Of a stretch of DNA of 64,000 nt, positions 14,087-15,803 are shown piece by piece; positions within the stretch are counted from its first letter, which is position 1, and every line of letters begins with the position of its first letter. Location: assembly GCA_017531985.1 (NCBI GenBank), contig JAFXJY010000021.1, forward strand, positions 1 through 64,000, written 5' to 3'. Source of the DNA: Bacteroidaceae bacterium (GTDB taxonomy: Bacteria; Bacteroidota; Bacteroidia; Bacteroidales; Barnesiellaceae_A). The translations under genes were made by a program, and so were the position numbers. The notes below the pieces were generated by a model. It saw only the letters and a program-made list of their open reading frames with translations. It had not been told where the DNA came from and did not search any database.

Positions 14087-15103
14087 ATGGAAGAGAACAA
14101 AAAATATACAGCTCAAGACTTTAAGAGCGACCAGTATGTACGCTGGTGTCCCGGCTGTGGCGACCACGCCATTGTCAATGCCTTGCAGAAAGCCATGGCC
14201 GAGGTAGGTGTACCTCCTCACAAAACCGCAGTCATATCGGGTATTGGTTGCTCATCGCGACTACCCTACTACATGGGAACCTACGGCTTCCACACCATTC
14301 ATGGTCGTGGCGGAGCTATCGCATCGGGCGTAAAGATGGCCAATCCCGACTTGACCGTATGGCAAGTATCGGGTGATGGAGACTGTCTCGCCATCGGTGG
14401 TAACCACTTCATCCACGAAGTTCGTCGCAACATCGACCTCAACATCTTGTTGATGAACAACAAAATATACGGTCTTACCAAGGGTCAATACTCACCCACT
14501 ACCGATCGCGGTTCGGTTACCAAGTCATCGCCCTATGGTACTGTCGAAGATCCCTTCATCCCCGCCGAACTCGTATTCGGTGCCCGTGGTACATTCTTTG
14601 CCCGCTCACTCGACGTTGAAGTCAACACAACTGTCGAAGTTCTCGCAGCAGCTGCTGCACATAAGGGAACATCGGTGTGCGAAGTATTGCAAAACTGCGT
14701 AATCTTCAACAACAACATCCACTCATACGTTACCGATAAAGATGTTCGTGCCGACCGCACCATCCACCTCCGCCACGGCGAGAAGATGATATTCGGAAAG
14801 GACAACAACCGCGGTATCGTACTCGATGGCTACCTGTTGAAAGCTGTTACCATTGGTGAAGACGGCTACACAATGGACGACATCCTCGTTCACGATGCCA
14901 AGAACCCCAACAACGTACTGCACCAGATGCTTGCCATGATGGATGGTCACGAACTCCCCCTCGCCATCGGTGTCATTCGCGATGTTGATGCACCCAACTA
15001 CACCGACGAATTGACCCGTCAGGTTGAAGAGGTGAAAGGCAAGAAAAACTTCAAGTCACTCCGCGAGTACATCCTCAGCGGTGATACTTGGGAAGTAAAG
15101 TAA
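14087..15103 (+). CDS. korB: 2-oxoacid:ferredoxin oxidoreductase subunit beta
   Basis: This 338-residue thiamine diphosphate-binding subunit has the cysteine-containing start RWCPGCGDHAIVNAL (iron-sulfur related) and GIGCSSRLPYYMGTYG. The ThDP/metal motif is GDGDCLAIGGNHFIHEVRRN followed by LLMNNKIYGLTKGQYSPT. It forms the active enzyme with KorA directly upstream. A 12-13 bp GC-rich hairpin at 15131-15158 ends the operon. No separate korC or korD is adjacent. Confidence 0.95.
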   Translation: MEENKKYTAQDFKSDQYVRWCPGCGDHAIVNALQKAMAEVGVPPHKTAVISGIGCSSRLPYYMGTYGFHTIHGRGGAIASGVKMANPDLTVWQVSGDGDCLAIGGNHFIHEVRRNIDLNILLMNNKIYGLTKGQYSPTTDRGSVTKSSPYGTVEDPFIPAELVFGARGTFFARSLDVEVNTTVEVLAAAAAHKGTSVCEVLQNCVIFNNNIHSYVTDKDVRADRTIHLRHGEKMIFGKDNNRGIVLDGYLLKAVTIGEDGYTMDDILVHDAKNPNNVLHQMLAMMDGHELPLAIGVIRDVDAPNYTDELTRQVEEVKGKKNFKSLREYILSGDTWEVK

Positions 15104-15130
15104 CACGTCTATTACACATTAATTAATATA

Positions 15131-15158
15131 GTGAGGCTCGCCAACCGGCGAGCCTCAC
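15131..15158 (+). terminator. Hairpin terminator after korB
   Basis: GTGAGGCTCGCC (15131-15142) pairs with GGCGAGCCTCAC (15147-15158) across a 4-base loop, 27 bases after the korB stop. The tail is only weakly T-rich. It also lies downstream of the - strand zinc-ribbon gene and may serve both. Confidence 0.7.
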
Positions 15159-15182
15159 TTACATAATAGTATAATCCTTAAT

Positions 15183-15356
15183 TTATCTCTCTACATATCC
15201 TATATGCTCCCACGCCTGATAGGCTTGACAACGATTGCAATAAGATGATGGATTACATCTTTCGCAGTATAAAGCACCACATTCTTTACAACGATATACG
15301 CTGGCTTCATGGGGATTACCGCATGTGGGACATTGATAGAATTTTGCGTTAGCCAT
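15183..15356 (-). CDS. 57-residue double CxxC-pair zinc-ribbon protein
   Basis: A short frame starts at ATG 15356 and stops with TAA at 15185-15183. Its 57 residues contain four CxxC pairs: Cys9/12 (CPTC), Cys23/26 (CKEC), Cys31/34 (CERC) and Cys40/43 (CNRC). This is enough for two zinc sites, like a compact zinc ribbon or rubredoxin-like knuckle protein. No signal peptide is seen. The ordered cysteine spacing makes a chance frame very unlikely. The overlapping 66-residue frame at 15200-15400 lacks such a pattern. It lies 90 bases beyond the terminator of the structured RNA and shows no clear promoter of its own. I do not recognise a specific family; nucleic acid or protein binding is a guess. 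Confidence 0.75.
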   Translation of the reverse strand: MANAKFYQCPTCGNPHEASVYRCKECGALYCERCNPSSYCNRCQAYQAWEHIGYVER

Positions 15357-15445
15357 AATATTTGATTTTTTAATTTTATATCCCTACTCATTTTCGGCAT
15401 TTCGGGTTACTCCGTTGCACCTTAGTCAAGTTATCGATTACGCAC

Positions 15446-15464
15446 AAAAAAAGCACGGTGCTTT
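15446..15464 (-). terminator. Intrinsic terminator of the structured RNA
   Basis: On the - strand AAAGCA-CCG-TGCTTT (15464-15450) forms a six-pair stem and ends in an uninterrupted seven-T run that continues to 15446. Its position at the closing end of the rod suggests the mature 3' end. Confidence 0.75.
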
Positions 15465-15685
15465 CAGCATTCCCATCCGGAGGTGTTTGGCGTAACCTAG
15501 CAGTAGAATAACCGAAAGCCCATGCCAATGGCATGAGCAATTCTTGCTATATTCTTACTGCTATCTCTTTTAGTCGCCAAACTTTCCGGATAGTAGAATA
15601 AAGCTAAAATGCTTTTCCAATATGTCTAAATGTGCGTATCGGATATACGCTAATGTTTCATAGGCAATTATTTTTAATGTTTATC
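15446..15685 (-). ncRNA. Structured RNA of about 240 nt, 6S-like or a regulatory leader
   Basis: A strong promoter (15689-15719) and an intrinsic terminator (15446-15464) bracket a region with no frame of note. The RNA folds into a long rod. AGCATT (15613-15608) pairs with 15471-15466. ATCCGGA plus GTTTGGCG (15591-15575) pair with 15492-15475. AGCAGTA.GAATA (15562-15550) pairs with 15510-15499. Two small hairpins cap it (15519-15533 and 15536-15548). An unpaired bubble (ACTAAAAGAGAT opposite a short purine-rich strand) sits mid-rod. A rod with a central bubble and this length fit 6S RNA, which is known in Bacteroidales, but I cannot align it to a family. The alternative is a leader for the zinc-ribbon gene. 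Confidence 0.6.
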
Positions 15686-15688
15686 ATG

Positions 15689-15719
15689 CAAATGTAGTTA
15701 TTTCTATCCTTAAAATCAA
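15689..15719 (-). promoter_or_regulatory. Consensus promoter of the structured RNA
   Basis: On the - strand TACATTTG (15696-15689) has TTG (15719-15717) exactly 20 bases upstream, an excellent match to the Bacteroidota housekeeping promoter. Transcription should start about 15682-15685. Confidence 0.75.
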
Positions 15720-15803
15720 TACCACATATCGAAATACTTCGCATGAATAGGTTAAGATGTGCATAACAAAGGTGGGTACGAATCTACACCTGTATAATAA
15801 AAG

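Follow-up and report, generated by a model that had tools for sequence, protein, structure and literature searches.

The locus at 15719-15446 of the window (the whole 64,000-nt stretch of DNA analyzed here) raises the question of whether the RNA made there is a free-standing molecule or the opening part of a gene's message. An initial annotation had described a promoter, a long rod of paired arms, and a terminator with a U-run, and had proposed either a 6S-like RNA or a regulatory leader of the gene that follows. All three parts were found in the window sequence, and all lie on the minus strand, which that description had left unstated (Table 1). The promoter has the consensus form that had been claimed for it, and a TAnnTTTG box occurs no more than 80 nt upstream of the equivalent point in 50 of 64 related copies, compared with 3% of control segments; the transcript would start near 15683. 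About 235 nt after the promoter the RNA reaches a U7 run, and the ORF of the 57-aa zinc-ribbon protein begins 90 nt beyond it. The fold predicted for the 245-nt RNA has an energy of −79.4 kcal/mol, with a z-score of −6.7 relative to dinucleotide shuffles (none of 200 as good) and a z-score of −4.2 for the opposite strand of the same region. Our analysis identifies the element as a leader of about 300 bases that opens the mRNA of a small gene and that belongs to a previously uncatalogued family of gut Bacteroidales. Since two conserved, covarying helices (b-d and Y-Z) reach beyond the U-run, the conserved unit runs to about 15381 and thereby enters the 57-aa gene's mRNA. The element has two exclusive folds, one of which contains a terminator, which suggests an on/off switch for small, mostly secreted-protein genes.

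Table 1 Features of the leader and its downstream gene, in window coordinates.
Feature	Position	Strand	Basis or partner
Bacteroidota-type promoter: TTG (15719-15717), 20 nt, TACATTTG (15696-15689)	15689..15719	-	sequence and recurrence in copies
Minimal ORF, ATG AAA CAT TAG, near 5' end (putative)	15650..15661	-	stop-within-7-codons counts
5' hairpin a-b (GCGUAU/AUACGC)	15631..15650	-	89.6% paired, covariation
b strand, AUACGCACA	15639-15631	-	alternative partner d in read-through RNA
h-i hairpin (AAAGC/GCUUU)	15600..15617	-	99.1% paired, largely invariant
h strand, GAAAAGCA	15617-15610	-	alternative partner: end of terminator arm plus U-run
Segment 1 (e, AUUCUACU)	15592..15599	-	partner: segment 2
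Rod 5' strand (CUAUCCGGA ... GUUUGGCG)	15575..15593	-	rod1 and rod2 pairs
Segment 2 (f and apical arm X)	15530..15562	-	partner: segment 1 or segment 3
Segment 3 (X' and g)	15500..15526	-	3' side of apical hairpin; terminator 5' arm 15526-15506
Rod 3' strand (CGCCAAAC ... UCCGGAUGG)	15473..15492	-	pairing counts in 65 copies
Segment 4: terminator 3' arm (15472-15452) and U-run (15452-15446)	15446..15472	-	hairpin energy, G-U:A-C count
d, UGUGCGUAA, immediately 3' of U-run	15438..15446	-	pairs with b in read-through RNA
Pseudoknot helix Y-Z: GCACC (15461-15457, before U-run) with GGUGC (15421-15417, after it)	15417..15461	-	
DUF805b-like element (Rfam RF02914), just 5' of gene	15381..15415	-	27.2 bits, E 9.5e-6
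57-aa zinc-ribbon protein gene, presumed target of leader	15183..15356	-	ORF; homologues also follow leader

Pairing was assessed on an alignment of 65 distinct, divergent copies (alignment A1). In the terminator state, which consists of local hairpins, segments 1 and 2 pair as helix e-f (95.8% paired; both-sided changes in four of its eight pairs), and segments 3 and 4 form a stem of about 21 bp, 15526-15506 with 15472-15452, that directly abuts the U-run. This 3:4 hairpin alone has an energy of −31.0 kcal/mol in the window and a mean of −26.9 kcal/mol over the 65 copies, across which its stem is about 95% paired. The U-run of the initial annotation stands, and the short hairpin beside it, first read as the terminator, is unconserved and gave way to the 21-bp stem, whose 5' arm doubles as part of the rod.

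The paired arms that had been listed for the rod proved to be real: arms 15575-15593/15473-15492 and 15556-15562/15500-15505 lie in helices with compensatory changes among the 65 relatives, where such changes, whose absence had been named as grounds for refutation, were sought and found. Both-sided changes occur in nine of nine pairs of rod1, seven of seven of f-g, and six of nine of X-X'. In rod2, seven of the eight pairs are invariant; in L182, a held-out copy, this otherwise invariant helix shows a compensated change. The pairing of strand h with the U-run (h-U) is 99.0% paired and largely invariant. Two further helices of the rod state use sequence past the U-run, namely b-d, which is 93.8% paired over nine pairs with both-sided changes in four, and the pseudoknot helix Y-Z, which is 88.3% paired with both-sided changes in five of five.

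Comparison of these copies shows two mutually exclusive structures of the RNA, each of which is conserved with covariation. Taken as wholes, the terminator state (a-b, h-i, e-f, and 3:4) has 95.0% of 2568 cells paired vs 41-54% with slid partners and a covariation of 0.213 vs 0.157 shuffled, and the rod state (b-d, h-U, rod, f-g, X-X', and Y-Z) has 93.9% of 3512 cells paired vs 34-54% and a covariation of 0.332 vs 0.185 (both-sided changes in 32 of 55 pairs), with none of 500 shuffles as high for either state; these shuffle tests are inflated by the relatedness of the copies, and the slid-partner controls (34-54% paired) are also far lower. A blind scan of column pairs for covariation ranked the rod and f-g at the top and also recovered e-f; e-f and f-g occupy the same columns and therefore cannot coexist. 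The terminator stem, b-d, and Y-Z emerged in addition when every conserved stem was listed. When RNAalifold was run unconstrained it returned the rod, and on the 5' part alone it returned the 1:2 hairpin. The locus accordingly has an intrinsic terminator (a 21-bp stem and U7) upstream of the ORF, together with exclusive, conserved terminator and antiterminator structures, as expected of an attenuator. We consider it probable that this cis-acting leader is a transcription attenuator of the 57-aa zinc-ribbon gene.

Attenuators of amino-acid operons of the trp type comprise four segments in which pairings 1:2, 2:3, and 3:4 exclude one another and 3:4 is an intrinsic terminator. The leader resembles them in that its own 1:2, 2:3, and 3:4 pairings are mutually exclusive, with 3:4 as an intrinsic terminator. 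It differs from them in having an additional 1:4 and rod helix, a pseudoknot beyond the terminator, and downstream genes that are unrelated to one another. No trp-type peptide carrying regulatory codons was found to overlap segment 1 of the leader; a minimal ORF of one to seven codons, which vary, sits some 50 nt 5' of that segment instead. Its variants include ATG TAA, ATG TAG, ATG GTA TAA, and ATG AAA CAT TAG. A stop comes one to seven codons after an ATG in every one of the 79 distinct GCC[TA]ATG-type copies and in 97 of the 98 elements that have an ATG. Among divergent representatives this arrangement is found in eight of eight, vs 40% expected from shuffles (p about 5e-4), a test that is weak alone given the stop-rich remaining frames and the eight independent representatives left after clustering. 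That the minimal ORF may sense ribosomes is only a suggestion, because the other frames are stop-rich and two copies (L147 and L194) are without the ORF.

In the attenuation mechanism that we propose, nascent RNA folded as 1:2 and 3:4 would terminate at the U-run and leave a stub of about 235 nt, and the alternative long rod (2:3, later 1:4) would consume the 5' arm of the terminator and permit read-through, so that polymerase would pass the DUF805b-like element into the gene; from this we infer that the two folds set the frequency of termination. Helix b-d and the Y-Z pseudoknot, formed only after read-through, may lock the RNA in the rod, or ON, state or give the DUF805b region its shape. 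Of the two states the rod is the more stable in each of the 65 copies, with a mean gap of 23 kcal/mol; unaided transcripts should therefore mostly read through, read-through could be the default, and termination must be kinetic or factor-assisted, with the rod delayed or blocked. The signal could be a ligand, a protein, the speed of transcription, or a ribosome at the minimal ORF. More tentatively, and with some doubt, we propose that these leaders answer to one shared signal and make up a new class of RNA switch in Bacteroidales, marked by a symmetric exchange (1:2 + 3:4 vs 2:3 + 1:4), by mutually complementary loops in the hairpins of one state, by a start-stop ORF that possibly reports ribosome availability, and by a pseudoknot across the terminator that fixes read-through. 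If so, many small secreted-protein genes would be governed together. To our knowledge, few regulatory leaders have been described in gut Bacteroidales, and the small secreted-protein genes of these bacteria are numerous and mostly uncharacterized; the leader RNA offers one testable control device for many of them. As both folds are backed by compensatory changes, sharp predictions can be made for each helix, which makes the system unusually favorable for study.

The stability of the rod is also what would be expected of a structural 5' leader that acts mainly after transcription, in which the rod and pseudoknot control translation or stability of the mRNA and the U-run belongs to the folded structure instead of serving as a terminator. 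This reading would explain why b-d and Y-Z covary using sequence past the U-run, so that they are relevant only in read-through RNA, and why the U-run is paired with a conserved upstream A-run in 99% of cells. It leaves the conserved, G-U-tolerant, covarying 21-bp 3:4 stem at the U-run without a role, and likewise 1:2, and we judge it unlikely. The related view that the U-run is only a pseudoknot part, with no terminator, was demoted to a rival once the 3:4 covariation had been found.

Comparison also ties the unit, on its strand, to a downstream gene: a same-strand ORF follows the U-run in 92 of 100 copies, at a median distance of 85 nt. A charged start and a hydrophobic N-terminal stretch are seen in 71 of these downstream ORFs; the genes behind most copies of the leader are small and mostly encode secreted proteins. 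The proteins are mostly unrelated, and any Pfam domain is common to few of them. Tidjanibacter (L067) and Paraprevotella (L139) each have a zinc-ribbon homologue, with 51% identity, behind the leader, and a protein-only search of 295 genomes added one more (43%) with a highly diverged leader, so that the leader is present at four of four zinc-ribbon homologues seen. The near-constant spacing and the presence of a leader at every homologue found strongly support the suggestion, made at the outset, that the element serves the 57-residue zinc-ribbon gene as a regulatory leader. They also weigh against an independent trans-acting small RNA, for which the terminated product of about 235 nt would be functional and the downstream gene incidental. 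A complete promoter and terminator, multiple copies within genomes, and a near-invariant loop sequence, AGUUUGGCGACU, would suit such an RNA, but the same-strand ORF at near-constant spacing in most copies, the conserved pairings that continue beyond the terminator, and the repeated link with the same zinc-ribbon gene make it distinctly improbable. The stub may act in trans besides its cis role. Like the leader, the FopS/GibS small RNAs of Bacteroides are multi-copy, paralogous RNAs in Bacteroidales as portrayed in their report (PMC11697453); FopS RNAs are characterized there as a single-stranded 5' seed and a terminator hairpin. Identity with FopS was rejected because the architecture differs by that description, the leader consisting of a long rod and being linked to the gene behind it.

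The source genome contains three copies of the leader, and there are at least about 100 further copies in many Bacteroidales lineages, mostly from metagenome-assembled genomes. The core pattern occurs in at least 116 stretches, nearly all from Bacteroidales (including Alistipes, Rikenellaceae, Prevotella, Paraprevotella, Muribaculaceae, and others), a sample that the pattern itself skews toward one core sequence; in viral contigs it has one match, without the remaining element. A covariance model built on the 119 nt at the 5' end recovered the window type from 12 of 295 Bacteroidales genomes sampled evenly (10 of 183 genera) and from no genome among 246 others sampled from the phylum, in a census whose stricter filters lose weak matches. 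The distribution is patchy yet broad. No Rfam family matches at the leader element in 16 loci representing several subtypes. Sister subtypes retain the apical hairpin, the X'-Y pairing (with the pre-U arm), and some rod helices. In one sister subtype (L066; L083; L100, from the cultured Paraprevotella clara YIT 11840; and L105, from the cultured Prevotella pectinovora P4-76), the central rod helix is reversed, with UCGCCAAA on the 5' side and UUUGGCGA on the 3' side, and the rest of the architecture is unchanged. In another copy (L015 1520-1640, G003:C13), the entire rod has been deleted between direct repeats GCGTA (a and d), and the promoter, 5' end, DUF805b-like part, and gene are kept, so that this copy is a natural deletion mutant of the switch.

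That a gene persists without the whole switch, yet with the promoter and DUF805b-like part kept, counts against the attenuator. The deletion between direct repeats, along with the multi-copy, patchy distribution, would also fit a DNA-level element (a mobile repeat or a recombination or protein-binding site) whose palindromes merely resemble RNA structure. We regard this as very improbable, as the promoter and ORF are invariably on the same side and G-U far outnumbers A-C in the pairs, a strand-specific bias expected of RNA only: the ratio is 808:166 over the helices examined and 234:4 in the terminator stem. This excess indicates that selection acts on the RNA of the minus strand, and not on a DNA palindrome or an opposite-strand RNA, which would lack it.

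The 6S identity that had been proposed for the locus has the size and rod shape in its favor, nothing more, and scarcely deserves credence, since neither the Rfam 6S nor the Bacteroidales-1 model, both of which the initial annotation had asked to be searched, matches here, the RNA is present in several copies per genome, each tied to a different downstream gene, and the genome has its own Bacteroidales-1 RNA elsewhere. That RNA (RF01693, labeled in Rfam as the suggested 6S of Bacteroidales) lies at G000:C7:140265-140445 and scores 153 bits against a cut-off of 60; it is like the leader in being rod-like, of similar size, and under its own promoter in the same bacteria, and differs in that its model has no match at the leader locus. 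For 6S (RF00013), no match was obtained in the window region at the gathering score or at E ≤ 10, and none in the genome; no Rfam family reaches its gathering score in the window.

The sole credible match in a closer search falls between the U-run and the ORF and is to DUF805b (RF02914, clan CL00115), below the gathering score of 35.6. DUF805b is a 35-nt motif and matches only the 3' end of the leader unit. The three best DUF805b matches of the source genome are its three leader copies, the other two scoring 35.6 (C31, at the cut-off) and 26.8. DUF805b was found in 184 of 295 Bacteroidales genomes, including the source genome, where single genomes carry as many as 21, whereas 14 named control genomes have none; it mostly occurs without the long leader, which was present in 12 of the 295. 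In some genes, then, this Rfam motif is the tail of a far larger RNA. A literature search returned no paper under DUF805b and none on attenuation and leader RNA in Bacteroidales. A survey of human-microbiome RNAs (PMC8040213), in which thousands of candidates are presented, may include parts of this leader RNA.

Stand-alone DUF805b elements precede each of several small peptide genes by 44-50 nt in three loci (L154 1137-3280; L155 1298-3390, minus strand; L156 940-1650), and DUF805b therefore resembles a 5' element of individual cistrons. The products of these genes have a common leader ending in GG (MRKLKLSLKKEIISDLEA..KGG) and are precursor-peptide-like. Close-set copies had raised the idea of an integron-like recombination site, which was set aside because the arrays inspected are runs of small peptide genes with DUF805b 44-50 nt before the ATG. 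At L157 2444-2530, a tandem pair of DUF805b elements, 46 nt apart, precedes a single ORF. Downstream of the leader's own gene in the window, a 13-bp inverted repeat at 15130-15159 lies between the convergent korB-like (ending at 15103) and zinc-ribbon (ending at 15183) genes and is probably a terminator common to both.
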